DNA of 25,866 nt, from positions 1 through 25,866 of IMG/VR virus record IMGVR_UViG_3300031787_000736; one strand, written 5' to 3'. The position numbers and the translations under genes were made by a program. Under the pieces are notes generated by a model. The model saw only the letters and a list, made by a program, of their open reading frames with translations, did no database searches and was not told the DNA's origin. The stretch comes from a virus. Positions 3,386 to 22,920 of the stretch are shown here, piece after piece; position 1 is the stretch's first letter, and the number at the start of each line of letters is the position of its first letter.

Positions 3386-3407
3386 TTGACATCCGATCGC
3401 GGAAGCA
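3386..3407 (+). promoter_or_regulatory. TTGACA start-proximal element
   Basis: TTGACA is at 3386-3391, followed by the hairpin TCCG-ATCG-CGGA (3392-3403) and then ATG 3408, 16 nt after the hexamer. This is one of the repeated copies of the window-wide element. No Shine-Dalgarno sequence is present at this start. Confidence 0.6.
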
Positions 3408-3731
3408 ATGTCTCCGCGCGCGTTTATTTTCTCAGCTTGGCTTGCGTCGGGTAAATCAGCGTCGAAGACCAAGGCCGCGCTAGAGCTAATCGGGGCCAAT
3501 CAATACAACGCCCAAAAGGAGGGCGGGCGGCTTTTGGTATCCGCTTCAATGGGGGGAAAGAGCTTCTCCTACAGTTTGCCGCCCGACATGACGGCTTCGA
3601 CCGTGGCGGAAATGGCGCTCACTTGTTGGGCTTTGGTCAAAGACATGACCGACTCCGAGCTTGAGGCGTATCTGACACGCAAGAACCCCAAGACGATGAT
3701 CGCCGCCTTTAATTACCCGCTCTACTCATGA
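3408..3731 (+). CDS. Small protein in the gpW position
   Basis: The 107-aa protein lies between the terminase and portal genes, where lambda encodes the head-tail joining protein gpW. An AALELI helix is followed by a beta-hairpin-like GGRLLVSASMGGKSFSYSL segment and a helical C-terminus. This loosely resembles the helix-hairpin-helix plan of gpW, but similarity is too weak to claim homology. The start is preceded by a TTGACA-hairpin element, and the stop overlaps the portal start (ATGA). Alternatives are an unrelated accessory protein or an inhibitor of the packaging complex. Confidence 0.7.
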   Translation: MSPRAFIFSAWLASGKSASKTKAALELIGANQYNAQKEGGRLLVSASMGGKSFSYSLPPDMTASTVAEMALTCWALVKDMTDSELEAYLTRKNPKTMIAAFNYPLYS

Positions 3732-5227
3732 AGCTCGCAGACCGCTGGAAACTTGTAAGCAAAGCCTTCAGCCCCAAGGCCGTCAGCTACGATGCCGCGC
3801 GTCCCTCGATTCAGCGCCGGATGCCCGCCAACGCGCGGGCCGTGGACTCGCACATTGATGTCACGGGCTTCGACCGCGAGCGCCTCATGCGCTTGTCCCG
3901 CTACCTTTACAACAACGTGCCGCTGGTGCGCGGCATGATTACCGAAAAAGCCCGCTACGTTGCCGGGGGCGGTGGCATCCGCCCGCAGGCGCGCAGCGGC
4001 GACGAACAATGGGACGCCGCCGCCGAGGCGTTTTTCGCGCAGTGGAGCCGCGTGGCCGACATTCAAGGGCGCTACTCATGGCGCGAAATGGTGCGCTTGG
4101 CCTCGATTGCCGTTGACCGCGACGGCGAAATCTTTTTCCGCACCGCGCAGCAAAGCACGGGATACCCCGCGCTTGAAATGATTCTGGCTCACAGGATCGC
4201 GGACGATCCAAACGTCATCTACAAGCCAAACGGCATCGGGCGCGCCACGGGCCAGCGCGTAATTGACGGCGTGGTGGTCAATGCGGACATGAGGCCGATC
4301 TTTTATCGCCGCGTTTTGGGCGATGATGGAGACGTTCCGCAGAGCCTTGATTTTGAAGACATCCCGGCCACGCAGATGATCCATCTCGGAGAAGCCAGCG
4401 CGGGCGACGAATTGCGTTTTGTCACGCCGATGGCCCCCTCGATCAACCACTTGCGCGACCTGCAAGATGCAATCTCGTTTGAAAAGATGGCGCTGAAGAT
4501 CAACAGCTACGTTGCGCTGGCGATCAAATCGAGCAACCCGCAGGGCGCGGATTTCTTTGGCGAGTCGCAGTCCGTGGCAAACCCTGACGGCACTTCCGAG
4601 ATGACCGTGGAGAGCCTCGGAACTACGGGCGGGGCCATCCCGCGCCTCGGCATGGGCGAGGATCTGGTCGCTTGGTCAAGTGACCGCCCGAAACAATCTT
4701 TCATGGACTTCAGCAATGCGCTGATCCGCGAGGTGTGCATCAACTTGGGTGTGCCTTTTGAATTTGTGGTGCGTCCCGCAGATGCCGGGGGCGCGGCGCT
4801 TCGTTCGGTGCTGGTGCGCGCGCAGCGCACGTTTGAGCATAGGCAGGCGCTTCTCATTGACCGCTTTTGCAATCGCGTTTGGGCACACGTTATCACGACG
4901 GCCATGTCGCGCGGTCTCATCCCGCAAAACGACAACTGGTGGCGCGTGGATTGGCAGACGCCCGCCGCCGCGAGCGTGGACTATGGCCGCGAGGCGCAGG
5001 CCAATCTCAACGATGTGCGCGCGGGGCTCCGCACCTACGCAGAGGATTACGCGGAGCGCGGGCGCGAGTGGAAAGACGAACTGCGCCAGCGCGCTACCGA
5101 GGCGAAGTATTTGGCCGAACTGGCTGCGGAGTTTGAAATCAGCCCCGACAGCATTGCCACTTTTAACCCCAATCCCGCGCCGCCTGTAGCGCAGCCTGCG
5201 CCGACCGCACCACCGCAGCAAGATTGA
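3728..5227 (+). CDS. Portal protein (lambda gpB family)
   Basis: The 499-aa protein is the dodecameric portal through which DNA enters and leaves the head. The family pattern is clear: a Tyr/Arg-rich N-terminus, LSRYLYNNVPLVRGMI near residue 55, a WREMVRLASIAVDRDGEIF segment, and a C-terminal half with FDFSNALIREV-like and GVPFEFVVRP motifs and the late DNWWRVDWQTPAAASVDYGREAQ segment typical of lambda-type portals. The extreme C-terminus is Pro/Ala-rich. Length is near that of gpB (533 aa). The start is ATGA-coupled to the preceding gene. Its stop TGA lies within the next TTGACA element. Confidence 0.93.
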   Translation: MKLADRWKLVSKAFSPKAVSYDAARPSIQRRMPANARAVDSHIDVTGFDRERLMRLSRYLYNNVPLVRGMITEKARYVAGGGGIRPQARSGDEQWDAAAEAFFAQWSRVADIQGRYSWREMVRLASIAVDRDGEIFFRTAQQSTGYPALEMILAHRIADDPNVIYKPNGIGRATGQRVIDGVVVNADMRPIFYRRVLGDDGDVPQSLDFEDIPATQMIHLGEASAGDELRFVTPMAPSINHLRDLQDAISFEKMALKINSYVALAIKSSNPQGADFFGESQSVANPDGTSEMTVESLGTTGGAIPRLGMGEDLVAWSSDRPKQSFMDFSNALIREVCINLGVPFEFVVRPADAGGAALRSVLVRAQRTFEHRQALLIDRFCNRVWAHVITTAMSRGLIPQNDNWWRVDWQTPAAASVDYGREAQANLNDVRAGLRTYAEDYAERGREWKDELRQRATEAKYLAELAAEFEISPDSIATFNPNPAPPVAQPAPTAPPQQD

Positions 5228-5243
5228 CACCGCGCGGGCGGTA
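5224..5243 (+). promoter_or_regulatory. TTGACA start-proximal element with hairpin
   Basis: TTGACA at 5224-5229 contains the portal stop codon. ACCGC (5229-5233) pairs with GCGGT (5238-5242) around a 4-nt loop, and the protease ATG follows at 5244, 14 nt after the hexamer. Confidence 0.65.
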
Positions 5244-6338
5244 ATGAAGCCCGCCGCCTCCCGCTGGTATGCAATTCAATCGACCGAAAACGGCAGCGCC
5301 GAAATCTCCCTTTTTGATGAGATCGGTTTTGGGGGAACAAGCGCGAAGGAATTTATTGCGGAGCTTAAAAAACTCAGCGGCCAACATATCCACCTCCGAA
5401 TCAATAGTGTCGGAGGAAGTGTTGTCGAAGGCACCGCGATCTACAACGCATTACGTCGGCACAAGGGCGGCTTAACTGTTCACGTCGAAGCACTTGCGGC
5501 CAGTATGGCCTCGGTGGTGGCAATGGCCGGGGAAGAGGTTGCCATCTCGGACAACGCGCTGCTCATGATCCACAACCCCTGGTCGATGAGCATGGGCGAT
5601 GCGGACGATCTTCGCAAAGAAGCCGACATTCTCGACAAGCTCAAAGCCACGCTGGTCAATGCTTACAAGCGCAAGACGGGCATGGATTCCGAGCAGATCG
5701 CCGCGCTGATGGACGACGAGACATGGCTTGGCGCAGAAGAAGCCGTGGCAATGGGTTTTGCCGATTACGTCGAAGACGGGCTGGAAGCCGCCGCCTCTAT
5801 CACGCCCGCCGAAGCGCGCAGCCGCTTTGACAAATTTTCCAACTCTATGCGTAAGCCCGCGAAAAACCGCAAAGCCGAGGAGGCTGTTCCCGAAGTCGTG
5901 GAACCGTCCGTCGAAGCGCCCGTGACCACGGACGCCGTTGACATCTCCGAGGAAGTTAACATGAACGCTGAACTTCAAGCGCAGGTTGACGAACTTCAAG
6001 CCAAGCTGGCCGAAGTCGAAGCCGCCAAAGTTGACGCCGAAGCCGTCGCCGCGCAAAGCGCCGAAGACGTTGCCAAGGAAATCGAAACCCTGCGGGCCGA
6101 AGTCGAGCGCCTCGCTTCCGAGTCCGCCGCCAAAGACGAGGAGATCAACGCGCTTCGCGCTGCCTCCAAAAGTGCTGGCGAACAGGCTGCTGCAATCGTG
6201 GCTGGCATCGGCGTTGATCCGTCCTTGGCACAGCCGGAACTGACCCCGGCGCAGAAGTTTGCCTCCCTCACTGGCCCCGAAGCCACCACCTATTTCCGCG
6301 CTCACAAGAGCGAAATCATCAAATCCCTCAACTCCTAA
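5244..6338 (+). CDS. ClpP/S49-like head maturation protease with C-terminal scaffold domain
   Basis: This 364-aa protein should process the prohead. Residues 1-175 form a ClpP-like fold: INSVGGSVVEGTAIYNAL, then the nucleophile motif AASMAS with Ser87, then the catalytic-type His110 in MIHNPWS. The linker at 200-239 is rich in Glu, Pro and Val. Residues 240-315 are a strong Ala/Glu/Lys coiled coil, as expected of a scaffold, and the C-terminus carries a PEL/FASL-type segment. The layout matches lambda gpC, whose 3' end encodes the Nu3 scaffold in the same frame. It lies between the portal and major capsid genes. Confidence 0.93.
   Translation: MKPAASRWYAIQSTENGSAEISLFDEIGFGGTSAKEFIAELKKLSGQHIHLRINSVGGSVVEGTAIYNALRRHKGGLTVHVEALAASMASVVAMAGEEVAISDNALLMIHNPWSMSMGDADDLRKEADILDKLKATLVNAYKRKTGMDSEQIAALMDDETWLGAEEAVAMGFADYVEDGLEAAASITPAEARSRFDKFSNSMRKPAKNRKAEEAVPEVVEPSVEAPVTTDAVDISEEVNMNAELQAQVDELQAKLAEVEAAKVDAEAVAAQSAEDVAKEIETLRAEVERLASESAAKDEEINALRAASKSAGEQAAAIVAGIGVDPSLAQPELTPAQKFASLTGPEATTYFRAHKSEIIKSLNS
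5961..6338 (+). CDS. Nested in-frame scaffold protein (Nu3-like), internal start
   Basis: ATG 5961 is codon 240 of the protease gene and opens a 125-aa coiled-coil product beginning MNAELQAQVDELQAKL. It has its own GAGGAAG ribosome site at about 6 nt. It also has an exact TTGACA at 5938-5943, 17 nt before the ATG, the same arrangement seen before separate genes. In lambda and relatives the scaffold is made from an internal start in the protease gene; here both the coiled coil and the start signals agree with that. A second TTGACA-ATG pair in frame lies at 5827/5847 and could make a longer 164-aa form. Confidence 0.65.
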   Translation: MNAELQAQVDELQAKLAEVEAAKVDAEAVAAQSAEDVAKEIETLRAEVERLASESAAKDEEINALRAASKSAGEQAAAIVAGIGVDPSLAQPELTPAQKFASLTGPEATTYFRAHKSEIIKSLNS

Positions 6339-6344
6339 AATTCT

Positions 6345-7241
6345 ATGGCTACCATCGCATCCGATCTGAATGATCGTCTATACAGTCAGTTGGCCCTTGA
6401 GTCCTTTGTTCGGACTCTCGCGCCGCTCAACGTGTTCTCAACCAGCTATTCCTCGGATGCTGTCGCTCGCGGCGCTTCCGTTGAAGTTCCGCTGATTGCG
6501 AACCTCACCGCCACCGATTTTGCCGACACCTACGAGGCCAACGGCGGCACCATCAACGCGACCCGCGTCAATGTGGACAAGCACAAGATTGTGACCGTCC
6601 GCATCTCCGACACGGAGTTCAGCCGCAGCACCAACGCCGACATCCAGAAATTCGCCTATCAGCAAGGCCGCGCTCTCGCGCAAGCCGTGATCGACGATAT
6701 CTTCAGCGCGTTTGTTACCACCGCCTCTGGCGCAGCGCAATTTGCCGCGACCGTGACGGGCTTGACCACGCTCACGCTCGCCAACGTCCGCGCTCTTCGT
6801 AAAGCCATGAGCGCCGACCGCGTGCCGCTCGATCAGCGCAGCTTGATCCTCGACAGCGACCTCTACGACGGCCTGCTCTCTCAGAGCAACCTGTCCGACG
6901 CTTCGCAGTTCGGTGCTCGTGACGCCATCGTTGATGGCCGCGTGCCCCGCGTCTACGGCATGAACGTCTACGAAGTGACCTCGACTCCCTCCAACAGCAT
7001 TTCGCTGAAGGGCTTCGCGGTTCACCCGAACGCTCTGGCCGTTGCCGTGCGCTCCCTCCCGGCGCAGGCTCCTTCGGAATACCTCGCGGCCACCACGGTC
7101 AACGATCCCGAAACGGGCCTCTCGATCAACTATCGCCGCCACTTCAATCCGTCGAGTGGTCAGCATTTCGCCAGCTATAGCTGCACCTACGGCTACACTC
7201 GCGGAATCACGGCGGCAGCGAAACTCGCTCTCGGAGCCTAA
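6345..7241 (+). CDS. Major capsid protein
   Basis: The 298-aa protein follows the protease/scaffold gene by 6 nt and is followed by a strong terminator, the classic place for the major coat protein. The N-terminal part (DLNDRLYSQLALESFVRTLAPLN, then GASVEVPLIANLT and VDKHKIVTVRISDTEF) resembles the P-domain strands of HK97-fold coat proteins. The C-terminal half has GMNVYEVTSTP and an aromatic beta-rich tail with a YGYTRGI segment. I cannot assign an exact coat-protein family. No separate decoration-protein gene of the lambda D type is present between scaffold and coat. Identity rests mainly on position and overall pattern. Confidence 0.85.
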   Translation: MATIASDLNDRLYSQLALESFVRTLAPLNVFSTSYSSDAVARGASVEVPLIANLTATDFADTYEANGGTINATRVNVDKHKIVTVRISDTEFSRSTNADIQKFAYQQGRALAQAVIDDIFSAFVTTASGAAQFAATVTGLTTLTLANVRALRKAMSADRVPLDQRSLILDSDLYDGLLSQSNLSDASQFGARDAIVDGRVPRVYGMNVYEVTSTPSNSISLKGFAVHPNALAVAVRSLPAQAPSEYLAATTVNDPETGLSINYRRHFNPSSGQHFASYSCTYGYTRGITAAAKLALGA

Positions 7242-7268
7242 GTCTCCATCTCCAACCGCAACACGGAG

Positions 7269-7298
7269 CCCCCGGCACACGCCGGGGGTTTCTGTTTG
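7269..7298 (+). terminator. Rho-independent terminator after the major capsid gene
   Basis: CCCCCGGC (7269-7276) and GCCGGGGG (7281-7288) form a perfect 8-bp GC stem with an ACAC loop, followed by TTTCTGTTT. It would uncouple high capsid expression from the glycosyltransferase and neck genes downstream. Confidence 0.85.
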
Positions 7299-7306
7299 TG
7301 GGGAAG

Positions 7307-7329
7307 TTGACAGGCGCTCACGCGCCGAG
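7307..7329 (+). promoter_or_regulatory. TTGACA element with hairpin before the glycosyltransferase
   Basis: TTGACA (7307-7312) is followed by GGCGC-TCAC-GCGCC (7313-7326), a perfect 5-bp hairpin, and ATG 7330, 17 nt after the hexamer. It lies 9 nt after the terminator tail, so if it acts on its own it is the only visible signal at the start of this gene. Confidence 0.65.
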
Positions 7330-9093
7330 ATGAGAGAAAAAATATCCCTGTGCGTTATCACGCACAATGAACCGAAGCGGCTGGATCGCTGCCTTACCTT
7401 GTTCAAACCCGCCGTGGACGAAATATGCGTAGTCCACGCGCATGGCAACACGCCGCCCGACTTGGAAATCACCCGCGTCTGCGAGCGCCACGGGGCCAAG
7501 ATGGGTGTTTATGCCAACGACCCGAAGAACGATTGGCCCCATGTGGACGATTTTGCCGCAGCCCGCCAGGCGTCCTTTGACCTTGCCAGCAATGATTGGT
7601 GCTTGTGGGTCGATGCCGACGATGTTCCGGGCGACAATTTTGCACCCGCCCTGCACGAACTACTGGAGCAGCACGGCAAAGATTTCGACGGCTTCTGCCT
7701 TTACCACAATGTCGCGGGCAGGCAGATCGCGCACAATGCCCGCGAGCGCCTTGTGAGGCGCAGCAAGGGCCGCTGGCGTGGCCGCATCCACGAAAACTTT
7801 TTGCCGCTGGAGGGCGACGGCAGAACCTACGCCCGGTGCGATGCACCCGTGGTCATTCACCTTCCCGACGAGGAGGCCAAGCAGGGCAACGAGCGCAACC
7901 TCCGCATCCTTGACTCTATCCCCGAAGCCGAGCGCACGGTGCGCGATCTTTACCACATCCAAGGCGAATTGATGGGCCAAGGCCGCAAAGACGAGGCGCT
8001 GACCCTCGGCCAACAGCTTGCCCAACGCGAAGACCTTCAACCCGTGGAGCGTTATGAGGTGCTGCTTAACGTGGCCGAAATGGTGCGCCCGCCCGTCGTG
8101 GAGCGCCCAAGCCCCGAATATGCCGCCATGTGCGCGGCCCTGCACGCGGCGTATGCTCTTATGCCTAACCGCCGGGAAGCCCTAGCCCTGCTTGGTGCGC
8201 TTCATCTCGATCTCTTTGATCTCGTCCGAGCCGAAGCCTACCTGCGACAGATGATCGCCACGCCGCGCCCGGCAGAATTGCCGTGGACGCACAGAGACGC
8301 GCTTTACTCTTGGGGAGGCGAACAGCTTTGGACGCAGCTTCTACGCATCACGGGGCGCATCGAACAGGCCGACAAGATTGAGCGCGACCGCTTGGCCCAA
8401 TGCGTCAAGGACGGCAAAATCACAATCAGCATCGTCCACCCCACACGCGGACGCCCCGAGCAAGCCGCCCGCGTCCGCAAGGCATGGCTGGATTCTGCCG
8501 CTGACGCCTCGCGCATCGAATACATCTTTGCCTTCAGCCAGGATGACCAAGAAACGGGCGGGCTTCTTCACCGCTTCCGCCACGCCCTTTCACCCGCCGG
8601 AAAGCTCGACCAAGTGGGCGGCACGCTGGTTGAAAACTACAATGCAGGCGTCCGCGCCAGCACCGGGCACATTATCCTGACCGTGCAGGACGATCTGCAT
8701 TGTCCGCTCCATTGGGACAAGCAGATTGAGGAGGCGCTGGCCGACAAGCTCGAGCAGCCCGCCGCCCTGCAAATACGCGACGGCTACCGCACCGACGATT
8801 TGCTCATCACCTTCTGCGTCACGCGGCCCACGCTGGATCTGTTCGGATTCGATGGCGGCATCGTCTGCCCCGAATACCACGGCGTTTTCTGCGACAACGA
8901 CTACACCCGCCTTGTGCAAAAACACGGCATCCTCGTCCCGTCCGACATTACCTTCCGTCACGAGCATCCCGCATGGAATCCCGCCGTGCCGATGGACGCC
9001 ACCTACGCCATCGAGAATAGCGAGCCGGGCTATGCCTACGGCAACGAAGTCTACCGCCGCCGCTGGCCCGCTGACACCGCTCCCAGCGCATGA
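7330..9093 (+). CDS. Two-domain family 2 glycosyltransferase
   Basis: The 587-aa protein contains two GT-A-type domains. Domain 1 (about 1-190) opens MREKISLCVITHN, has the metal-binding DADD at 95-98, and carries an RRSKGRWRGRIHENF segment typical of GT2 enzymes. The middle (190-350) looks TPR-like and helical. Domain 2 (about 362-560) restarts with ITISIVHPTRGRPEQ and has a VQDD at 452-455 in place of the usual DxD. Reading frames extending upstream into the capsid gene are rejected: ATG 7330 lies at the natural N-terminus and directly after the TTGACA hairpin. It probably transfers sugar to a virion protein or host surface; the acceptor is unknown. The stop overlaps the next gene (ATGA). 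Confidence 0.9.
   Translation: MREKISLCVITHNEPKRLDRCLTLFKPAVDEICVVHAHGNTPPDLEITRVCERHGAKMGVYANDPKNDWPHVDDFAAARQASFDLASNDWCLWVDADDVPGDNFAPALHELLEQHGKDFDGFCLYHNVAGRQIAHNARERLVRRSKGRWRGRIHENFLPLEGDGRTYARCDAPVVIHLPDEEAKQGNERNLRILDSIPEAERTVRDLYHIQGELMGQGRKDEALTLGQQLAQREDLQPVERYEVLLNVAEMVRPPVVERPSPEYAAMCAALHAAYALMPNRREALALLGALHLDLFDLVRAEAYLRQMIATPRPAELPWTHRDALYSWGGEQLWTQLLRITGRIEQADKIERDRLAQCVKDGKITISIVHPTRGRPEQAARVRKAWLDSAADASRIEYIFAFSQDDQETGGLLHRFRHALSPAGKLDQVGGTLVENYNAGVRASTGHIILTVQDDLHCPLHWDKQIEEALADKLEQPAALQIRDGYRTDDLLITFCVTRPTLDLFGFDGGIVCPEYHGVFCDNDYTRLVQKHGILVPSDITFRHEHPAWNPAVPMDATYAIENSEPGYAYGNEVYRRRWPADTAPSA
9071..9089 (+). promoter_or_regulatory. CTGACACC variant of the start element
   Basis: CTGACA (9071-9076) lies inside the end of the glycosyltransferase gene. 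It is followed by CGCT-CCC-AGCG (9078-9088), a 4-bp hairpin, and ATG 9090, 13 nt after the hexamer. It differs from the consensus only at the first base. Confidence 0.45.
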
Positions 9094-9395
9094 GCCAGTT
9101 TGCCCAGGCCTACACCGCCGCCTCCACCGAAGCAGTCGGCACCATCCGTGACCAAATCGAATACCGCGAGAGGTGCTATCTGGCCGTGGTAGGCGAGGAA
9201 ACCTATGGCAACGCCTTGGGCGAAGGCGGCTTTGAAGCGGCGAGGGGACTCACCGCCACCGTGCTCAAAGCCGGCGCCCCGGCCTACCGCCTCGGCGGCA
9301 TCGTGAAATTCCAAGACCGCCGCTACCGCATTACCGGAATAGACACCGATTTAGCAACGATTGACCTCACCCTGCAAAGCCCCGACAGCAAATGA
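9090..9395 (+). CDS. Head-tail connector / head closure protein candidate
   Basis: The 101-aa protein has a helical N-terminus and then a beta-rich segment ending VLKAGAPAYRLGGIVKFQDRRYRITGIDTDLATIDLTLQSP. This Gly-x-x-V-x-F-x-x-x-x-Y-x-I pattern is common in small head-closure (stopper) proteins. It is ATGA-coupled at both ends and sits at the start of the neck genes, where lambda FII-type joining proteins occur. Family assignment is by position and pattern only. Confidence 0.6.
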   Translation: MSQFAQAYTAASTEAVGTIRDQIEYRERCYLAVVGEETYGNALGEGGFEAARGLTATVLKAGAPAYRLGGIVKFQDRRYRITGIDTDLATIDLTLQSPDSK

Positions 9396-9886: not shown

Positions 9887-9899
9887 GCCCGTTGACGGC

Positions 9900-10028
9900 G
9901 TGATCCGTCTGCCGAATTGGCCGGATTGCTTGGCCGACAAAGCCGTGGCCGCGTCCATCGAGGGCGCTGTATTTGAGGGCTACGAGCAGAAATCAGGTCA
10001 GCGCACGGGGATTTATCGAGCGCGCTAG
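9900..10028 (+). CDS. Small hypothetical protein
   Basis: A 42-aa product from GTG 9900 would read MIRLPNWPDCLADKA and end RTGIYRAR; it starts 13 nt after the previous stop. The open frame extends upstream to ATG 9804 (74 aa) and 9789, but those starts overlap the tail-terminator gene deeply and have no ribosome site. The sequence ends just before a TTGACA element. No function is recognised; the start is uncertain. Confidence 0.5.
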   Translation: MIRLPNWPDCLADKAVAASIEGAVFEGYEQKSGQRTGIYRAR

Positions 10029-10029
10029 G

Positions 10030-10048
10030 TTGACACCGCCCCTAGTGC
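10030..10048 (+). promoter_or_regulatory. TTGACACC start-proximal element
   Basis: TTGACA at 10030-10035 lies one base after the previous TAG stop, with ATG 10049 13 nt further on. CTAGG (10025-10029) and CCTAG (10041-10045) form a different inverted repeat around the element. Confidence 0.55.
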
Positions 10049-10847: not shown

Positions 10848-10849
10848 CC

Positions 10850-11733: not shown

Positions 11734-11755
11734 TTGACACCTCTGGGCGGTCGAT
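11734..11755 (+). promoter_or_regulatory. TTGACACC start-proximal element
   Basis: TTGACA at 11734-11739 precedes ATG 11756 by 16 nt in the 42-nt gap between genes. Only weak pairing (ACC with GGT) is visible before the start, and there is no Shine-Dalgarno sequence. Confidence 0.55.
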
Positions 11756-12203: not shown

Positions 12204-12381
12204 CAAATACGGAATCAGTCTGGAGGACGCCATTTGGCATTTGCCGATGGCCGCTCTAAACCAGCTTATCATCTACGACGAACTAGCGAGCGGTCGCTCG
12301 CCGCGCTGGATAGATAGCGGCGAGGAGGGGGCTAAAGACATAGAGGCGTTGTTGGCCGACGCGCTGACACCAAGCCTCTGA
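12154..12381 (+). CDS. Tail assembly chaperone extension (T-like), expressed by -1 frameshift
   Basis: The -1 frame encodes 75 residues after the slip (SLAARPAWQLCLAARVAKYG onward, ending ALTPSL), giving a G-T-like fusion of about 208 aa from the ATG at 11756. The body is helical and includes WHLPMAALNQLIIYDELAS, the kind of segment found in tail chaperone extensions that bind the tube subunit. No convincing independent start with a ribosome site exists. The end carries a CTGACACC element for the next gene. Confidence 0.75.
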   Translation, partial: SLAARPAWQLCLAARVAKYGISLEDAIWHLPMAALNQLIIYDELASGRSPRWIDSGEEGAKDIEALLADALTPSL

Positions 12382-12382: not shown

Positions 12383-13141
12383 ATGGATTCCGTAGTGCAG
12401 GCCGACTATCGCGCCGTGAGCCGATTTCATGCGGCCATGCGTGAGCTTGCCTCAATCAGCGGCAAGGATTTCCAACAAGTCATGCGCCACGAAGTCGGCG
12501 CTATTCTAAACGCTTCCGTTCGTGGGACGCGCAAGGCCACGACTAAAAGCATCCAAAGCAACCATGATAAACAGCCGGGCTCCCGATATGCCTTTGACTA
12601 TGCCGGGCCAGAGTCTCGCAGCGGCAAACAATACAGCGCCGCCGATGTTTTGCGCTTGCGCCAAAGAGCAGCAGAGCGCCGATCTAAAGCCAAGAACGGC
12701 AAGATGGTCTATTATTTTTCCAAAAGCAACGAGCCCAAGGCTTACCCAGCGTGGGTATGGCGTCAGATCCAAGATCGTCGCGCCAAAAGCCTAAAGGCCC
12801 GCATGGGAGCGCGCGGCCTCGCCGCCTCCATGTGGACGAAGATCGGCAGCCAGCTTGGCATTGACGTAAAAGCGCCAGCCTATGTCCGCAACGCCAAGCA
12901 CCACAAAAAAGGCGGCATGGAGGAAATGGTGCAAGCCTACCAAAAGGGCAGGGGCAAAAGCTATGAGATCGGGTTTGTAAACGCCCTGACGCACTTGAAC
13001 CAATGGAACCGCGTCGGCGTGGTGTTTCGCAAGGCGCTAAATGCAAGGGCCAACTTCTTCAGCCAAGCGGTCAAACTACAAGCTAAGGGAACCATAAAGC
13101 GCGTCATGGACAGGTATCCCGGCATGGCAAGCGTCTCTTGA
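12383..13141 (+). CDS. Hypothetical basic tail protein
   Basis: The 252-aa protein is strongly basic, with long Lys/Arg-rich helices (RLRQRAAERRSKAKNGK, RRAKSLKARMGARGLA, AKHHKKGGMEEM). It lies between the tail chaperone and tape measure genes, so a tail-tip or tape-measure-associated role is likely. Basic proteins containing an early RHEVGAILNAS-like helix are common in phage tail modules, but I do not recognise a named family. Its TGA stop is inside the next TTGACA element. Confidence 0.7.
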   Translation: MDSVVQADYRAVSRFHAAMRELASISGKDFQQVMRHEVGAILNASVRGTRKATTKSIQSNHDKQPGSRYAFDYAGPESRSGKQYSAADVLRLRQRAAERRSKAKNGKMVYYFSKSNEPKAYPAWVWRQIQDRRAKSLKARMGARGLAASMWTKIGSQLGIDVKAPAYVRNAKHHKKGGMEEMVQAYQKGRGKSYEIGFVNALTHLNQWNRVGVVFRKALNARANFFSQAVKLQAKGTIKRVMDRYPGMASVS

Positions 13142-13161
13142 CACACTGAGCAAGGCAGAAA
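13138..13161 (+). promoter_or_regulatory. TTGACA start-proximal element
   Basis: TTGACA at 13138-13143 contains the TGA stop of the preceding gene. The tape measure ATG is at 13162, 18 nt after the hexamer, the longest spacing seen. No clear hairpin is present. Confidence 0.5.
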
Positions 13162-16149: not shown

Positions 16150-16153
16150 AACT

Positions 16154-16435: not shown

Positions 16436-16443
16436 CCCATGAA

Positions 16444-16463
16444 TTGACACCGACACAGTGGAG
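16444..16463 (+). promoter_or_regulatory. TTGACACC start-proximal element
   Basis: TTGACA at 16444-16449 precedes ATG 16464 by 14 nt. A GTG at 16458 is also in frame, but the ATG fits the element spacing better. Only weak pairing is present before the start. Confidence 0.55.
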
Positions 16464-17822
16464 ATGCAGCCACGGGTGTTTTCAATTGAAGTCGGTGGAC
16501 AGACTATTTCGGGCGGGGCAACCGCTTTTTTTAGGGAAGACGTTGAAAAAATCCGCCTGCGTTTTGTCAATAACGGGCAGCCCATCGACTACAGCGGAGC
16601 CTCGGTCAGAATGGGCATCGGCTCCATCGGATCTCCAGCGGCAGGCGGCTACAAAATCAGCGACGCGGTCGGCACTTCTGCCGTCGTGTCTTTTTCGGCC
16701 ACTGCGGCCCAGGTTAAAACGGCCCTTGACGCCCTGCGATCCAATACAGGCTTGTTTGCCGCCGGCCCCTGCGCCGTCACGGGGGCCATGCCGCGCTATA
16801 CAGTCACGGTCGGTTCCAACAATACGGGAAGCGTTTCCAATCTTTCGGCTAGTGACATCACCCTTTCGCCTGACGCGGATGTTCGTTTCTTGGAGCGGCA
16901 ATCCGCCTCTAGCACGCGCCCTCTTGTTTTCGACATTGTCTTCCCTCGAAAGCCGGCCGTTTTGCAAACGAGCTGGTCAAGCGTCAGCACCTCGATCACC
17001 CCGACCGTCAGCACTATTGCCGCTGGCGGCAGCGGCAGCAACGAAGTGCAGTTAATTTCGATCCCGACCATACCCGACGAAGGCAGCTTTGCCATCACCA
17101 TGCCGGCGCGCAGCGTCACCGTGTCTTCCGTTTCATCTAGCGTTTTCACCTCGGTTAATCACGGCCTCTACGACGGTCAATCCGTCACGCTTTCAGCGTT
17201 CACTATTTCCAGCGGATTTTCCAACGGCGCGCAATACATTGTCACTTCGCGCACAAAAGACACTTTCCGCATCGCCAGCACGGCGGGCGGCGCCCCGCTT
17301 ACGGTGTCGGCCAGCAGTGGCGGCACCGCGCAACTCGCATCAACCTTGGTTGGCCCGATTGCTTACAACGCCTCGGCCAGCGCCGTTTCTTCTGCTTTTG
17401 TCGCGGCAGGATTCACCATAGGAGGCACGCAGCAAATTGTCTGCACGGCAACGCCTGGCAGAGAATACCGCCTCATCTTTGGGGGAGGGTCGGCAAATAT
17501 CGACTTCGCCCCTGTCACAATCATCTCCGACCTGAAAAGCCTCCCGGCCATAGAAGCCAACGTATCTTTCAACACCTTCGGCGTGAGGGACGCGGTCGAG
17601 CGCGGCGATAACAGCCTGTTCATGGAAGTTGAAGTCGCGCAAGGCGGAGTTCGCAAGACCTACAGAACTGGCGCTTCATTCTCCGCAGACCTTCTGGCGT
17701 CATCCGTTTCGTCTCCGGTTGTTGTCCCATTCAACGGATCAATAACCCTGCAAAGTTCCGACAGTTCGCTCTGGTCAATCACCGTGGACAACGACGGCAT
17801 CCTAACTGCAACCAAACAATAA
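16464..17822 (+). CDS. Baseplate/fibre protein with BppU-like N-terminus
   Basis: This 452-aa protein begins with a BppU-like N-terminal module: REDVEKIRLRFVNNGQPIDYSGASVRMGIG at about residues 24-53, the pattern of a strand, a charged turn and a 'sGAsv' strand that anchors fibres to the tail tip. The remainder is a long Ser/Thr/Gly/Ala-rich beta region resembling repeated carbohydrate-binding or stalk domains, including a VNHGLYDGQSVTLSAFTISSGFSNG segment and a C-terminal GSITLQSSDSSLWSI strand. It probably contacts the host surface. There is no signal peptide. The same type of N-terminal module appears alone in the gene at 18596. Confidence 0.75.
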   Translation: MQPRVFSIEVGGQTISGGATAFFREDVEKIRLRFVNNGQPIDYSGASVRMGIGSIGSPAAGGYKISDAVGTSAVVSFSATAAQVKTALDALRSNTGLFAAGPCAVTGAMPRYTVTVGSNNTGSVSNLSASDITLSPDADVRFLERQSASSTRPLVFDIVFPRKPAVLQTSWSSVSTSITPTVSTIAAGGSGSNEVQLISIPTIPDEGSFAITMPARSVTVSSVSSSVFTSVNHGLYDGQSVTLSAFTISSGFSNGAQYIVTSRTKDTFRIASTAGGAPLTVSASSGGTAQLASTLVGPIAYNASASAVSSAFVAAGFTIGGTQQIVCTATPGREYRLIFGGGSANIDFAPVTIISDLKSLPAIEANVSFNTFGVRDAVERGDNSLFMEVEVAQGGVRKTYRTGASFSADLLASSVSSPVVVPFNGSITLQSSDSSLWSITVDNDGILTATKQ

Positions 17823-17823
17823 C

Positions 17824-18399
17824 ATGAAAACTCTTCTCACCATCCTATTCGTCACCCTCTGCGCGGCCACCAGCTACGGCCAGACGATGAAGGCGCTGAT
17901 GTTTAACGCGAGCAACAATCAGGTGGTTGCAAGCACGGGCACCAACAATCTCACATTCACAAACAACGTAAATCTCCCATCGGGCTCATTGCTAAGATTC
18001 AATAGTGGTGCATCTCATATTGACGAGACTGGATTTTACGCAACTCAATACGGCTCGTTTTTTTCTTTTGAAGAGCAAAGACTACGCATGAACGATGCCA
18101 ACGTGTTTGAGTGGGACGCAAACGGCGTAGTTACGTTTGGCAATGCCCCGGCCACCCGCACCAACCTCGGCCTGGGCGCAAATTTCCTCACAAACGCCAA
18201 CGTCACCAATTTCCGCTCGGCTATTGGCTTGGGCCTCCCAGCCCTCACCAACACCAGCAATGTCACCATAATGCGGGCGCTGGCTGGAAGCGCGAATACC
18301 AACCAGCCATTTAGCGGAACATTTATAACTTACGATACAACAGACATTTATACTGTCACTGTTTCAAACGGAATAATTATTTCTGTGAACGTGCAATGA
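17824..18399 (+). CDS. Fibre-like protein with a Sec signal peptide
   Basis: The 191-aa protein begins MKTLLTILFVTLCAATSYG-Q, a textbook signal peptide with cleavage likely near residue 19 or 20. The mature part resembles tail-fibre sequence: Asn-rich strands (TNNLTFTNNVNLPSGSLLRF), a fibre-style motif ATRTNLGLG, and repeated Thr-Asn-Val turns. Virion proteins are normally assembled in the cytoplasm, so a leader on a fibre-like protein is unusual. It might be an exported host-surface factor, or a signal-anchored protein acquired from a bacterial adhesin. It is 1 nt after the previous stop and ATGA-coupled to the next gene. Confidence 0.8.
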   Translation: MKTLLTILFVTLCAATSYGQTMKALMFNASNNQVVASTGTNNLTFTNNVNLPSGSLLRFNSGASHIDETGFYATQYGSFFSFEEQRLRMNDANVFEWDANGVVTFGNAPATRTNLGLGANFLTNANVTNFRSAIGLGLPALTNTSNVTIMRALAGSANTNQPFSGTFITYDTTDIYTVTVSNGIIISVNVQ

Positions 18400-18599
18400 G
18401 CGACCAAGAACGCAAATCCGTCAACCTCGCCTTGGCATCCTTCGCCTTGGTGCTGATCGCGCAAACCGCTGCGATGTCCTGGTGGGCCGCTACGCTTCAG
18501 GCCAATGTCTCGCAGCATGACGAGCGGCTCGATGCGCTTGCGCCCCGTGTGGAAATGCTGGAGCAAGACTTCTATCGCCGTGGAGGGACGCCCCGATGA
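18396..18599 (+). CDS. Small single-pass membrane protein with coiled coil
   Basis: The 67-aa protein has a short basic N-terminus, one membrane segment at about residues 10-30 (LALASFALVLIAQTAAMSWWA), then a coiled-coil stretch (QANVSQHDERLDALAPRVEMLEQDFYRR). This resembles small inner-membrane spanin-like or superinfection proteins, but no family can be named. It is coupled by ATGA overlaps on both sides within the fibre cluster, not the lysis cluster, which argues against a spanin role. Confidence 0.65.
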   Translation: MSDQERKSVNLALASFALVLIAQTAAMSWWAATLQANVSQHDERLDALAPRVEMLEQDFYRRGGTPR

Positions 18600-18958
18600 G
18601 TTGCACCACCTCACAGGCCGATCTGTGTTGGACGCGCGGCGACTCCGGGCGGCTCGATGTCACGGTGAAAGACGCGAGCGGAGCAGCCTACAATCTTACC
18701 GGGGCCACGCTGTTTCTGACGGTCAAGAACGCGCTGACCGATGCCGACAGCGCCGCCGTCATTCGTAAAGAAGTGACGAGCCACGACAATGCCACGGGCG
18801 GGCTTTCGCACTTCGATCTTGCCACCACCGACAACGCCACAGCCGCGACTCGGTATTACGATGTCCAGGTAAAAACCTCGGACAACAAAATCTACACGCT
18901 CTTCGGCGGCTTGTGGAAAGTCCTCTCCGACGTAACCACGCGCACCGCGCCGCTCTAA
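18596..18958 (+). CDS. BppU-like N-terminal module as a stand-alone gene
   Basis: The 120-aa protein contains RGDSGRLDVTVKDASGAAYNLTGATLFLTVKN, the typical BppU-type fold pattern, followed by DAAVIRKEV and FDLATTDNATAATRYYDVQVK strands. It is nearly all module with no long C-terminal receptor part and lies directly before the long fibre gene, so it probably acts as an adaptor joining the fibre to the tail tip. A GGAGG ribosome site lies 8 nt upstream and the start overlaps the preceding stop. It is distantly similar to the N-terminus of the 16464 product. Confidence 0.78.
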   Translation: MSCTTSQADLCWTRGDSGRLDVTVKDASGAAYNLTGATLFLTVKNALTDADSAAVIRKEVTSHDNATGGLSHFDLATTDNATAATRYYDVQVKTSDNKIYTLFGGLWKVLSDVTTRTAPL

Positions 18959-18959
18959 A

Positions 18960-21836
18960 ATGGCCGCTTACCACAAAGTCGAAGTCTCGCTCAACACCAA
19001 CGCCGCTGAAGTTGGTATTCCTTCGCCGCAGACGGTGAATGTTGTCGTGCCGACGATTGGGCCAGCGGGGCCAGCCGGAAGTGTTGGGCCGACAGGCCCG
19101 CAAGGCCCGCAGGGTATTCCGGGAACGGGCATCGAAGTTTTGACCACGCAGGGCGATTTGCTTTATCGCGGCGCCTCTACGGGCCAGCGCCTTCCGATCG
19201 GCACGGCGGGTCAGATTCTAAAAGTTTCGTCCGGCGGAATACCTGAGTGGGGCGCGCCCCCGGCAAGCGGCGTGTCCTCGGTGAATGGACAAACAGGCGC
19301 GGTCACCATCACCGCCGCCTCGATCGACGCGGCCGAAGACTTTCACACCCACAACTTTTCCGACATTCAAGTCAACGGCGTGTTCATTTCGGGCGCGGGC
19401 GATGCCAGCGCCAACGGGCCATACCTTTACAGTGGAGATTTCGGAGACCGTGGAGCCTATCACAAGGACAAAGACTCGCTGATTTATTGGGACGGATCGG
19501 CGTGGATGATAAGCGTTAACGGGGACGATAGATACACCAGCACGCAGGACGTTTCTTTTCCCTATCAAGTCACATCATGGAGCGTCTTGCCCGGATCGGG
19601 AACCGCGCCCGCGCCGACCGTCAGCACGCGCCTTAACGGCCAAGAATTTGAGGAGGTTGTCGGCCAGCGCATCAACCCAACACTGCGCGGCGATGCTGCC
19701 GGGAAAAATGTCGGCACCGGCGCAAACGATGTGGCAGCGGGCAACCACAGGCACGGCAACCTATCCAACGACGGCAAAGTCGGCACCACCTCTGGCCTCC
19801 CGCTCAAAACAGGCACCAACGGCGTAGTCGAGGCGGGTTCTTTCGGCACATCGGCAGGGACGTTTTGCGAGGGGAATGATGCTCGGCTTTCGGACGCGAG
19901 GACGCCAAGCAGCACGTTGGCCCACGCCGCAAGTCACCAAGTAGACCGCGAAGCGCGATACGCAGGCAAAGCGTCTGGTATGGCGACCAAAGTCATCATC
20001 GTTGCCGACAATGTTGGGGCTGCTGGCAACAGCATTTCACTTTCGTTCAACGGCACAGATACCATCGAAACCGTGCTTGCCGCATGGAATGCAGCCAATA
20101 CCTCAAACACGGCGTCATTAGTAGCTGGCGATGAAACCCAAATTCCAAGCAACGGGCAGACAATTACATTAAGCGGAGGCGTCAACGCAGGAACGGACAC
20201 GCTTTCTCCGTTTAATCAATCGCTCAACACCACCGACTCCGTTGCATTCAGTGGTTTTACGGTAGGGGATGGAGAGGTGATAGCCGTTGGCGATAACTAC
20301 GGACAATTTACAAGCATAAATAGCAACACTGGTTTCATCATAAATCGCGGGCAGAATAACAACTTTGCGAGTCTGGACTTTTTAGAAGGCGGCAGCGGGG
20401 CAAGCGGATGGTCAATCCAGCTTCAGCCAAACATCGATAATCTTGCTTTTGCAAATCGTGTTCAAAGTTTCAATCAATTAACACTTCCCGCCACAGGAGA
20501 CGTTGGCCTTTCAGTTTCTGGAGACATTTCTGTATACGACAGAACAAACGAAGTCACTGCGACATTTGTCGCGCAAGAAAATCTTTCGGACAACAGGAGC
20601 TATCAGTTGCCCGATGCAGACGGAACCCTTGCTCTCACAACCGACAACGCCGACCAATTCGGTAGCGGAGCTGCAGCAGATGGCTACGTCCTGACCGCTG
20701 ACGGCGCTGGCGGGGCAGCATGGGAAGCGGCAACTGGAGGAGGAGGCGGCGATACCGTCTCAATCGAAACAACCGCCGCAGATGTTCTTTCCGTCTCTTC
20801 GGGCGCAATTTCTGCCGACGATGCGGGAGCGGATCGGATTGTTTACTGGAACAACACCAGCAACAAGCTCGCCTACGGCACACCCTCCGATGTCGGCGCG
20901 GCGGCAAGCTCGCACACGCACTCGGACGCCACACAGTCTGTCGCTGGCTTCATGTCCACGGCGGACAAGACCAAGCTGGACGGAATTGCTTCGGGCGCAG
21001 AAGCAAACGTCAACGCCGATTGGAACGCATCGAGCGGTGACGCGCAGATCCTCAACAAGCCTACCCTCGGCACGGCAGCAGCAGCGGCGACAACCGACTT
21101 TGCGGCGGCTTCGCACACGCATGCAGCCTCGGCCATCACTTCGGGAACATTGGATGTGGCGCGGCTCCCTGTTGGCACGGGCAGCACCAACGTCCTCGCC
21201 CCGACCATCGTAGACGCCAAAGGCGACCTCATCGTGGCCTCGGCAGCAGACGCCGTTGCGCGGCTCCCTGTTGGCGGCACGAACGGCCATGTGCTGACAG
21301 TCGATTCGGCTGAGACTTTGGGAGTGAAATGGGCGGCGGCGGCGGGCGGCGGATCTGGCGGCACAAAAACCTACGCCGTCTTCACCGCCGAACACAACCA
21401 ACCGCCATCGACCAGTTTCGCCACGCTCGACACCCGCAACAGCATCGCCGTCCTCGACTTCGATGACGCCTCGACCGAATCCGCTGTCTTCGTCGGCATC
21501 ATGCCCGAAGCTGCGTCACTCGGCAGTGGCCTAATCGTCAATCTTGACTTCATGGCGACCACGGCCACCAGCGGCAACGTGCGCTGGAGTGTCGCCTTTG
21601 AGCGTTGCAACACCGACCTCGACTCGGATTCTTTCGACACGGCCACCGCTGCCACTGTTGCCACCTCTGGCACCTCTGGCATTGTCGCCGTGGGCAGCAT
21701 CACCTGCACGGCGATCGACGGAATCACGGCTGGCGACTTGTTTCGTTTGCGGGTGCAACGACTCGGAGGTGACGCCGCAGACTCGGCCAGTGGGGACATT
21801 GAGCTTGTCGCTGTGGAAGTAAGGAGCGCGGCGTAG
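18960..21836 (+). CDS. Long tail fibre with collagen-like segment
   Basis: The 958-aa fibre starts with a short beta N-terminus, then a collagen-like Gly-Pro run at about residues 35-56 (GPAGPAGSVGPTGPQGPQG). It continues through fibre repeats: GDLLYRGASTGQRLPIGTAG, HTHNFSDIQVNG, SHTHSDATQSVAGFMSTADKTKL with a DGIASGAEANVN continuation, and GDLIVASAADAVARLPVGGT. These are familiar trimeric fibre and shaft motifs. The C-terminal 160 residues form a separate beta-rich receptor-binding-like domain. A less GC-rich stretch in the middle (about 20220-20620) suggests domain swapping. It starts 1 nt after the previous stop. Confidence 0.9.
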   Translation: MAAYHKVEVSLNTNAAEVGIPSPQTVNVVVPTIGPAGPAGSVGPTGPQGPQGIPGTGIEVLTTQGDLLYRGASTGQRLPIGTAGQILKVSSGGIPEWGAPPASGVSSVNGQTGAVTITAASIDAAEDFHTHNFSDIQVNGVFISGAGDASANGPYLYSGDFGDRGAYHKDKDSLIYWDGSAWMISVNGDDRYTSTQDVSFPYQVTSWSVLPGSGTAPAPTVSTRLNGQEFEEVVGQRINPTLRGDAAGKNVGTGANDVAAGNHRHGNLSNDGKVGTTSGLPLKTGTNGVVEAGSFGTSAGTFCEGNDARLSDARTPSSTLAHAASHQVDREARYAGKASGMATKVIIVADNVGAAGNSISLSFNGTDTIETVLAAWNAANTSNTASLVAGDETQIPSNGQTITLSGGVNAGTDTLSPFNQSLNTTDSVAFSGFTVGDGEVIAVGDNYGQFTSINSNTGFIINRGQNNNFASLDFLEGGSGASGWSIQLQPNIDNLAFANRVQSFNQLTLPATGDVGLSVSGDISVYDRTNEVTATFVAQENLSDNRSYQLPDADGTLALTTDNADQFGSGAAADGYVLTADGAGGAAWEAATGGGGGDTVSIETTAADVLSVSSGAISADDAGADRIVYWNNTSNKLAYGTPSDVGAAASSHTHSDATQSVAGFMSTADKTKLDGIASGAEANVNADWNASSGDAQILNKPTLGTAAAAATTDFAAASHTHAASAITSGTLDVARLPVGTGSTNVLAPTIVDAKGDLIVASAADAVARLPVGGTNGHVLTVDSAETLGVKWAAAAGGGSGGTKTYAVFTAEHNQPPSTSFATLDTRNSIAVLDFDDASTESAVFVGIMPEAASLGSGLIVNLDFMATTATSGNVRWSVAFERCNTDLDSDSFDTATAATVATSGTSGIVAVGSITCTAIDGITAGDLFRLRVQRLGGDAADSASGDIELVAVEVRSAA
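21159..21275 (+). repeat. 18-bp direct repeat inside the fibre gene
   Basis: GCGCGGCTCCCTGTTGGC occurs at 21159-21176 and again at 21258-21275, encoding ARLPVG in both fibre repeats. The flanks are less alike, so nucleotide identity exceeds what the protein motif alone requires. It may promote recombination between fibre modules. Confidence 0.75.
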
Positions 21837-21837
21837 T

Positions 21838-22479
21838 ATGGCTTACAATTTTACAGCAGCGAGCAGTCAGTATTTAAGTGCTTCAACAAGCACGGCGCAA
21901 GAGCCGCTTACGATTGCAGCTTGGTTTTATCCAACAACAATCGGAGTTGCTCAGGCGTTGGGGTCGATTGGAATAAATGGCGGGGTTGGAAGGTGTCAGC
22001 TATTCGTATCAATACCAAATACCCTTCGTCTGGCTCATACTGACAATTCTGGAGGAACTGCTGGGGCCACCATAGATGCGGCAGGGTCTGTGGTTCAAGA
22101 CCAATGGCAACATGGATGCGGGGTCTTTGCAAGCGAGTCATCGCGCACACCGTATCTAAATGGCGTTGCTGGTTCCGAAAATACTGTGACCATCGGAACG
22201 ACGGGGCCATTTGATTCAACCCTTGTCGGATCTCGATTTAATACAACACTGGGATTTTATTTTTCTGGACGCATTGCAGAATTTGGAGTCTGGAACGCAG
22301 CCCTCACCGCCGATGAAGTGGCCTCCCTCGCCAAAGGCATGACCTGCGACAAAGTGCGTCCAAACGCGCTCGTATTCTATGCCCCCTTAATCCGCAATCT
22401 CCAAGATGTGCGCGGCGGCTTGACCATAACGAACAACAATGGCGCGACAGTCGCCGACCATCCGCGAGTTTATGCCTAA
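21838..22479 (+). CDS. LamG/concanavalin-type carbohydrate-binding protein
   Basis: The 213-aa protein has the signatures of a LamG-type lectin domain: SSQYLSASTSTAQEPLTIAAWFYPTT near the start, DQWQHGCGVFASESSRTPYLNG in the middle, and IAEFGVWNAALTADEVASLAKG near residue 160. Such domains bind glycans and are common as receptor-binding tips of phage fibres. Its first two thirds are visibly AT-richer than the flanking genes, consistent with transfer. It starts 1 nt after the fibre stop and its end overlaps the next gene. Confidence 0.88.
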   Translation: MAYNFTAASSQYLSASTSTAQEPLTIAAWFYPTTIGVAQALGSIGINGGVGRCQLFVSIPNTLRLAHTDNSGGTAGATIDAAGSVVQDQWQHGCGVFASESSRTPYLNGVAGSENTVTIGTTGPFDSTLVGSRFNTTLGFYFSGRIAEFGVWNAALTADEVASLAKGMTCDKVRPNALVFYAPLIRNLQDVRGGLTITNNNGATVADHPRVYA

Positions 22480-22897
22480 ATACTACCGCATTTCCGACCC
22501 AAACGATGTCCGCGACCTTGGCGAGCAGATGGCCGCGTGGGAGCTTGCCGACAATCCGAAGCGTTTTGATTGGGCCGCGCAGCCCGAAGCGCCGTCAGCG
22601 GATGCCGTGTGGCAGAATGGGGCTTGGAGTGTGCCGCCTGTGCCCACTTACACCGCCGCCGAATGGGTAGACGCGCAAGGCTTCGCAGGCAACCGCAGCA
22701 CGACCATGCTGTATCTCAAGCTCAAGCTCGACGCCGCGCAAAAGACATCGCCCAAGCTCGCCGCTGTTCAGTCGTGGCTTGATGGCATGATTGTGGCGGG
22801 CGTGACCGCGCCGGATGAGCGGCAAAGTGCGTGGCCCGTGGCCCCTTATTCGTTTGAGGCCGCGAGCCAAGAGGCGTTGGCTGTGCTCGCCGGGTAG
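22472..22897 (+). CDS. Hypothetical fibre-associated protein
   Basis: The 141-aa protein starts at ATG 22472 (MPKYYRISDPNDVRDLGEQM), overlapping the previous stop by 8 nt. The N-terminal half has short strands and a Pro-rich centre (QPEAPSADAVWQNGAWSVPPVPTY), and the C-terminal half is helical (LYLKLKLDAAQKTSPKLAAVQSWLDGMIV). Its position after the receptor-binding gene suggests a fibre-assembly or tip-associated function, but no family is recognised. It ends 3 nt before the lysis-module TTGACA element. Confidence 0.65.
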   Translation: MPKYYRISDPNDVRDLGEQMAAWELADNPKRFDWAAQPEAPSADAVWQNGAWSVPPVPTYTAAEWVDAQGFAGNRSTTMLYLKLKLDAAQKTSPKLAAVQSWLDGMIVAGVTAPDERQSAWPVAPYSFEAASQEALAVLAG

Positions 22898-22900
22898 GCT

Positions 22901-22920
22901 TTGACACCCCTGCGCGGGGT
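22901..22920 (+). promoter_or_regulatory. TTGACACC element with perfect hairpin before the holin candidate
   Basis: TTGACA (22901-22906) runs into ACCCC-TGCGC-GGGGT (22906-22920), a perfect 5-bp hairpin that ends exactly at ATG 22921. It is the cleanest example in the window of the element-hairpin-start arrangement. Confidence 0.7.

Follow-up and report, generated by a model that had tools for sequence, protein, structure and literature searches.

TTGACA placed before late-gene start codons points to an undescribed switch of virus-building genes in prophages of a Verrucomicrobiota-type order

In phage T4, late promoters with hairpins in the start region have been described for genes e, soc, 49 and I-TevI (PMC3014915, PMC2988022). 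For the single-element middle/late promoters of phiEco32 gp36 and the gp47 promoters of phage 7-11, transcription starts were mapped 6-8 bp downstream (PMC8948821). The L5/D29 stoperator consensus, GGTGG(c/a)TGTCAAG, has a TTGACA core when reverse-complemented (PMC5712189). In Trixie, an L5-type phage used as a stand-in for L5, many starts have TTGACAttCACC 23-31 nt ahead of them on the coding strand. No description of a TTGACA late-gene start element was found among 5.39 million open papers.

Placement of TTGACA in the window

The window analysed here, the whole stretch of 25,866 nt of viral DNA, contains 12 exact copies of TTGACA, 10 on the plus strand and 2 on the minus strand (16565-16570 and 25554-25559). 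The shuffle mean was 10.6, so the number is ordinary and the position abnormal. All 10 plus-strand copies end 13-18 nt upstream of an ATG that opens a frame, and one of the two minus-strand copies lies at the same distance from its start. TTGACA ranked first of the 4096 hexamers by copies 19-25 nt ahead of an ATG with a frame of at least 50 codons; 10 of its 12 copies were at that distance, compared with 3.9% for the average hexamer (binomial p 6e-13), which rules out chance placement. The recount agreed with the first-pass annotation, which had named these ATGs and the minus-strand GTG 25537, had given the spacing as 13-18 nt, and had reported no other plus-strand copy and a stray minus-strand copy at 16565-16570.

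The plus-strand series begins at 3386-3391, 16 nt before ATG 3408, where 67 of 67 orthologues retained the hexamer despite changing flanks. The copy at 5224-5229, 14 nt before the head-protease ATG 5244 (55 of 65 orthologues), holds the portal stop codon (5225-5227), and the one at 13138-13143, 18 nt before the tape-measure ATG 13162 (8 of 8), holds the prior stop (13139-13141), so that two exact copies do span the stop of the previous gene as had been noted. Further copies were located at 7307-7312, 17 nt before the glycosyltransferase ATG 7330 (35 of 35 orthologues); at 10030-10035, 13 nt before ATG 10049, whose orthologues showed the strongest covarying start hairpin; at 11734-11739, 16 nt before ATG 11756 (21 of 24); and at 16444-16449, 14 nt before ATG 16464 (9 of 9). 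The last plus-strand copy, at 22901-22906, is 14 nt before the holin-like ATG 22921 and is followed by a CCCC..GGGG hairpin. On the minus strand, 25554-25559 lies 16 nt before the metallophosphoesterase GTG 25537 (7 of 8).

Nested protease-scaffold genes of the lambda C/Nu3 type have an in-frame internal start in the head-protease gene. The ATGs at 5847 and 5961 do have TTGACA ahead of them, at 5827-5832 (14 nt) and 5938-5943 (17 nt), but they are not separate genes as listed before; they are internal in-frame starts of the head-protease gene (5244-6338), that at 5961 being the likely scaffold start. Both sites were conserved in codon choice. At 5827, TTT (never TTC) GAC A was retained while the residues downstream varied, and at 5938, GTT GAC A was found in 14 of 14 site variants, GTT making up 18% of Val codons. 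Internal head-protease starts behind TTGACA were found in divergent prophages too.

The CTGACA variants reported before ATGs 78, 9090 and 12383 are present, all on the plus strand, but two of them behave differently. At terS (ATG 78; element at 56-61), many relatives have TTGACA, and the first base alternates between C and T among the orthologues, which retain a hairpin involving the spacer. The sites at 9071-9076 and 12364-12369, each 13 nt before its ATG and within the coding sequence of the upstream gene, are doubtful: the first base was always C in the former and C in 22 of 24 orthologues in the latter, and neither had a covarying start-codon hairpin.

Over 150 non-redundant sites, the conserved core was about 6 bp, with TTGACA strong, a weak C after it and a weak T before it. 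The claim that CC usually follows was therefore softened: within the window it held for 6 of 11 exact copies, and over the 150 sites C reached about 55% per position. The spacer between TTGACA and the start was GC-rich and C-rich. TTGACA is also the -35 consensus, and host sigma-70 promoters with miscalled start codons were considered. At 15-19 nt downstream of the 150 sites, the best -10 match averaged 2.09 of 6, less than the 2.42 in shuffles, and no site had a TATAAT-like sequence with at least four matches, compared with 10% in shuffles. In addition, such transcripts would begin within genes, and the start positions and their hairpins were kept across relatives. The earlier rejection of host sigma-70 promoters was thus supported, and we regard them as extremely improbable.

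Conservation of the element and the starts that carry it

The proposed check for enrichment in relatives was run on 78 related contigs, and 353 of 446 TTGACA copies were at the start-proximal position. Divergent prophages of one Verrucomicrobiota-type order had the same element, and both results replicate the placement independently. These results show that TTGACA 13-18 nt before late starts is a selected element in a large prophage group of this order. Akkermansia phage Moulinsart had 7 copies per strand, none of them 19-24 nt ahead of a start. A terminase-based host search of 84,980 species genomes gave no close match; the genome with the best tRNA match was G168. In 388 genomes of the phylum of G001, TTGACACC-N-ATG was in no more than modest excess over the reversed control, and in G168 0 of 321 genes had TTGACA at that position; a general host translation signal was rejected on these grounds.

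The element marks late genes with a start clear of the upstream gene, neither overlapping nor abutting it, together with the two internal starts of the head protease. It was found in 11 of 12 orthologue groups with such non-overlapping, non-abutting starts versus 2 of 28 other groups. A strict coupling rule is broken by the 5244 orthologues, which overlap the portal gene and carry the element. The element stayed anchored to the start codon however far away the previous gene lay, in-frame internal starts included. In the complete relative, TTGACA was restricted to late genes, and the early block had no exact sites. Reinitiation, one of the functions suggested before, is unlikely, as the element is mostly missing from starts in overlap with, or abutting, the prior stop.

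Start-codon hairpins and recognition of the hexamer

The spacer and the first codons form hairpins that enclose the start codon. This structure exceeded what composition explains, was preserved by compensatory change, and was absent at other starts. The start codon behind the element usually sits in an RNA hairpin. When the transcript was shortened from the spacer side, the excess structure fell gradually with no step, and a sharp transcript start could not be derived from truncation. Moreover, a terminator-like hairpin lies directly 5' of two elements. At the 7330 gene it has a T-rich tail and occupies 7266-7298, 3' of the capsid gene (19 of 20 distinct orthologues), and at the 11756 gene it was found in 10 of 23 orthologues.

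These hairpins, and the tracking of translationally uncoupled starts, would also suit the translation signal that had been suggested earlier. The ribosome, or an RNA-binding factor of phage or host origin, might recognise UUGACA in late mRNA, open the structured start and take the place of Shine-Dalgarno pairing where no ribosome can be handed on from upstream. The anchoring to the start codon, the 11/12 versus 2/28 split and the covariation all fit, as do the Shine-Dalgarno-like words found before only 13% of G168 genes. On the other hand, early genes manage without the element and host genes do not use it. The hexamer is no Shine-Dalgarno signal itself: it does not pair with CCTCC, and its spacing is 13-18 nt rather than about 5-10. 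Pairing of the element with 16S rRNA was rejected since the 16S locus of one host (G446) had no TGTCAA, and a phage antisense RNA with TGTCAA was rejected since there was no conserved locus. RNA recognition also fits poorly with avoidance of the hexamer on both strands, and we consider it possible but doubtful. The bolder version, in which UUGACA would be a new class of translation start, a Shine-Dalgarno substitute 13-18 nt before hairpin-locked starts that is read by a late phage factor and would serve phage late mRNAs in Shine-Dalgarno-poor bacteria, is as a whole unlikely.

In phage coding sequence elsewhere, exact TTGACA occurred 7 times against 69 expected on one strand and 6 against 42 on the other, and neighbour words were not avoided. 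The divergent prophages avoided it on both strands too (7 against 26.8 and 12 against 24.6). Avoidance confined to the sense strand, which would have spoken for an RNA signal, was thus not what we found, and the avoidance of the exact hexamer on both strands indicates that TTGACA is probably read as DNA. Because G168, in which no such prophage was found, avoids TTGACA as well, the avoidance may have a host cause. Host avoidance was discarded as a clue, since the word is avoided in G168 but scarcely so in the hosts of the divergent prophages.

A boxA-like RNA bound by NusB and ribosomal protein S10, for antitermination or ribosome recruitment, is very unlikely. A boxA-resembling TGTTCTTTGACATC adjoins the 16S gene of G446 (L185), and the elements before the 7330 and 11756 orthologues resemble boxA because of their T-rich 5' flank. 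However, both strands avoid the hexamer, and the 5' half was not conserved over the 150 sites beyond a weak T before TTGACA; of the TGTTCTTTGACA-like boxA of the host group, the 3' half alone was conserved.

A candidate reader is a phage helix-turn-helix (HTH) protein encoded directly before terS, ahead of the late block (192 aa in the complete relative). Its HTH appears to be sigma-region-4/repressor-like: residues 112-175 weakly matched a phage sigma family, phrog_351, in its region-4 portion (E 4e-4), and a search for region 2 gave no family match for the N-terminal half. The HTH alone showed weak similarity to a cluster A immunity repressor (E 0.031). Fold comparisons were weak (Z below 5) and not diagnostic, Foldseek with the model gave no match at E 0.001, and tblastn against 50,697 phage records gave none. 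The protein recurs in the divergent TTGACA prophages and is absent from ten control phages. On the G446 contig, which lacks the early region, the element is present and the HTH gene was not seen.

The repressor similarity and the both-strand avoidance would also suit a stoperator-like roadblock, in which a phage repressor on one-way TTGACA sites halts RNA polymerase before late genes until it is removed. The sites lie at gene boundaries in a single orientation along transcription, like the Trixie sites, and share the L5/D29 core. A roadblock, however, has no need of the fixed spacing, the internal in-frame sites or the start-codon hairpins; conservation extends over about 6 bp and not 13, and a lysogeny repressor should act in the early block, which in the complete relative has no sites. 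We consider it quite unlikely.

The reading that we favour, tentatively and at somewhat less than an even chance, is that a phage protein reads TTGACA as a site of late transcription and that hairpins keep read-through mRNA locked in the manner of T4. The protein, for which the HTH protein is the candidate, would recognise TTGACA in double-stranded DNA, and late transcription would begin right before each translationally independent late gene with a very short leader. Read-through transcripts from upstream would hold both hairpin arms and keep the start codons locked, while transcripts begun at the element, with most of the 5' arm missing, would be translated. This late-transcription site is consistent with the placement at starts in the window, the relatives and the divergent prophages, with the late-only distribution and the both-strand avoidance, and with the compensated hairpins whose structure is lost on shortening. 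The terminator-like hairpins ahead of two elements, the distribution of the HTH gene and the T4 precedent (PMC3014915, PMC2988022) also fit. Against it, the supposed start has neither a -10-like nor an AT-rich melting region nearby, the spacing has a spread of 6 nt, 13 start sites in 20 kb are many, and the hairpins reveal no sharp transcript start; the HTH match is weak, the G446 contig shows no HTH gene, and the avoidance may be host-caused. Of the functions suggested at first, regulator binding gains from the both-strand avoidance and from the HTH gene adjoining the late genes.

Comparison with known systems

The placement of TTGACA points to an undescribed switch that turns on virus-building genes late in infection. 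The element is a genome-wide late-gene signal in widespread, unstudied phages known almost solely from metagenomes, and it gives a rule by which their genuine start codons, and internal ones, can be located. As in lambda C/Nu3, there is an internal in-frame start in the head-protease gene; here, the internal starts share the TTGACA of the outer genes, in divergent prophages as well.

The likeness to T4 lies in late genes, a short upstream element and a start-locking RNA hairpin maintained in relatives, with the gating logic of gene e and I-TevI being the same as that proposed here. The T4 element is TATAAATA, while here it is TTGACA (150 sites); hairpin elements occur in few T4 genes and here in most late units; and the start region here is not AT-rich. 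With phiEco32 gp36 and 7-11 gp47 these phages share a repeated short element before late genes and a phage-encoded specificity factor, here a candidate and not an established sigma factor, but the sequences are unrelated. The L5/Trixie stoperators are likewise asymmetric TTGACA-core sites in one orientation, many per genome, at boundaries before starts (PMC5712189, PMC6550527, PMC9283540), and the HTH protein here is weakly similar to their repressor. Their core is 13 bp rather than about 6, and they are spread genome-wide, with sites also in the early block and at its promoter, where the complete relative has none; tight start spacing, restriction to the late block, start-codon hairpins and in-frame internal starts are features of the present element. 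The element may therefore connect two separate ideas, the hairpin-gated late expression of T4 and the TTGACA-core repressor arrays of L5.

Position of TTGACA and the genes that carry it

The window, an IMG/VR virus record, covers the late half of the genome of a temperate phage and contains terS, terL, portal, head protease, capsid, tail and lysis genes, as well as a minus-strand metallophosphoesterase (gene calls from a simple custom script). The 3' part of a tRNA-Ser, from the CGA anticodon loop to CCA (25688-25744), is attachment-site-like and likely the attachment site; an integrase gene adjoins this region in the complete relative G397. The best matches to the tRNA-Ser were genomes in the phylum of G001, in which one locus has the title Verrucomicrobia bacterium UBA1412, and distant terminase relatives were found in 17 of 213 genomes in the order of the best-matching genome, G168. 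A plausible sigma-70-like promoter (TTGCAT, 16 nt, TATAGT at 2459-2495) lies directly 5' of the small gene 2495, which is inserted between terL and the gene starting at 3408 and is common to few relatives. A two-domain glycosyltransferase (7330-9093) is located within the structural block, where it immediately follows the capsid gene and the terminator-like hairpin at that gene's 3' end. Close to the N terminus of the large tail protein (18960-21836) there is a short collagen-like repeat of Gly-Pro.

The placement of TTGACA 13-18 nt before start codons, proposed in the first-pass annotation, was correct for all 10 plus-strand copies in the window and for one of the two on the minus strand. The copy number equals the chance expectation, and it is the position of the copies that is abnormal: TTGACA ranked first among 4096 hexamers for start-proximal position in the window (10 of 12 copies, p = 6e-13). 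A start-anchored motif search, as the annotation had suggested, extended this to relatives. A terminase scan yielded 79 loci; in the relatives among them, 353 of 446 TTGACA copies began 19-24 nt before an ATG opening at least 80 codons, and control words had no such peak. Among orthologues grouped by gene in 78 contigs, TTGACA was kept at 3408 (67/67), 7330 (35/35), 16464 (9/9), 13162 (8/8), 5244 (55/65) and 11756 (21/24), counts that are not independent because the relatives share ancestry. Despite this ancestry the hexamer flanks differed strongly between relatives, and spacers and flanks varied freely among orthologues. Portal (n = 74) and capsid (n = 46) starts in these contigs had no TTGACA.

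Late-block starts have the element where they neither overlap nor abut the preceding gene. A gap of at least 15 nt was found in 11 of 12 ortholog groups with the element vs. 2 of 28 without (p = 4e-7; groups assembled by us from the orthologue table). The exceptions are 5244, which overlaps in relatives yet has the element, and 10440, which has a gap and lacks it. The early block of G397 had no element, even at starts with a gap. Moreover, 5847 and 5961 are conserved in-frame starts inside the head-protease gene (5244-6338), at the expected scaffold-start place, and this gene likely encodes a nested scaffold protein from them. TTT, not TTC, precedes GAC at the first site, and the second reads GTT GAC A in 14 of 14 variants, GTT being 18% of Val codons; residues after both sites vary while the codons preserve TTGACA.

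Divergent prophages and avoidance of the hexamer

The element was also found in divergent prophages of the genomes with distant terminase relatives, delimited with approximate borders, where TTGACA copies lay at the element position in 12/17 (G442), 12/14 (G446), 7/8 (G455) and 8/13 (G599) cases. In G446, G503 and G496 it also marks an internal start of the head-protease gene, so that the nested arrangement recurs there. The independent-start rule holds in G446 too, though the element-bearing genes partly differ. By comparison, all 14 copies in a 100-kb stretch of the G442 host core lay outside this position, and none of 321 genes had the element in G168.

With start sites masked and synonymous shuffling as the expectation, TTGACA occurred 7 times in phage coding sequence vs. 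69 expected, and its complement 6 vs. 42. None of its one-letter neighbours was similarly avoided on both strands, and only GTAC-containing words and CACGTA ranked above it. The observed and expected counts were 7/26.8 (complement 12/24.6) in the divergent prophages and 19/25 (14/21) in their hosts. If the word were read purely in RNA, avoidance would be expected on just one of the strands, and we consider an RNA signal less likely than a late start site; a caution is that G168 coding sequence (L145-L164) also avoids TTGACA (10 vs. 82 expected) and its complement (14 vs. 63). G168 additionally avoids CCCC and TTGAC in general. In the phage family, GTAC is nearly absent from coding sequence (4 vs. 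249 expected, four genomes) and several 6-bp palindromes are avoided, which look like signs of restriction in the host.

Hairpins at the start codons

The region from -15 to +15 nt of the start was more stable than its mononucleotide shuffles by 1.74 kcal/mol (t = -7.3, 150 non-redundant sites), and starts without the element, coupled or uncoupled, had no such excess. Swapping spacers between orthologues' coding starts destroyed the stability (174 variants sharing ancestry, p = 3e-4) and had no effect in 30 control groups; the start helix is therefore kept by compensatory change. The CTGACA groups 9090 and 12383, which had been listed as variants of the element, showed no compensatory helix in this test. 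Furthermore, a terminator-like hairpin lies directly 5' of the elements at 7307 (19 of 20 orthologues) and 11734 (10 of 23), suggesting that transcription may restart there. Phages also employ such terminators to reduce downstream expression. Our tentative reading, given somewhat less than an even chance, is that the element is a late start site; its weak point is that no melting region was found at the element sites.

A candidate reader and known systems

Because the window lacks early genes, a candidate reader is known from relatives only. It is a 192-aa HTH protein encoded directly before terS in G397 (L105:12031-12606, minus strand), whose C-terminal HTH matches the region-4 part of a phage sigma family (E = 4e-4) and, weakly, HTH_11/KorA. 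Homologues were found in G442, G595, G503, G496 and G455, weakly in G599, and in none of ten control phages or the host stretches; the G446 contig lacks an early region. Viral contigs with distant HTH matches had the element at starts above background. The AlphaFold model is all-helical (pLDDT 72), and its fold matches, sigma region 4 and other HTHs, were non-diagnostic (Z below 5).

The nearest PDB sequences were KorA-domain proteins (E = 0.017) and a mycobacteriophage immunity repressor (7r6r, E = 0.031). L5/D29 stoperators have the consensus GGTGG(c/a)TGTCAAG (PMC5712189). In the L5-type phage Trixie (L262), stoperator-like sites with the coding-strand sequence TTGACAttCACC lie at gene boundaries and cluster 23-31 nt before start codons, a striking likeness. 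A stoperator-like block is nevertheless improbable, since stoperators of L5 and Trixie differ from the element in site length, genomic distribution and spacing to the start codon. For the late-start-site reading the comparison is T4, where late transcripts begun within the 5' part of a start hairpin are translated and read-through ones are not (PMC3014915, PMC2988022). By analogy, late transcripts starting in the 5' part of the start-region hairpin would be translated here and read-through transcripts would not, a logic that fits most of the facts on the element.
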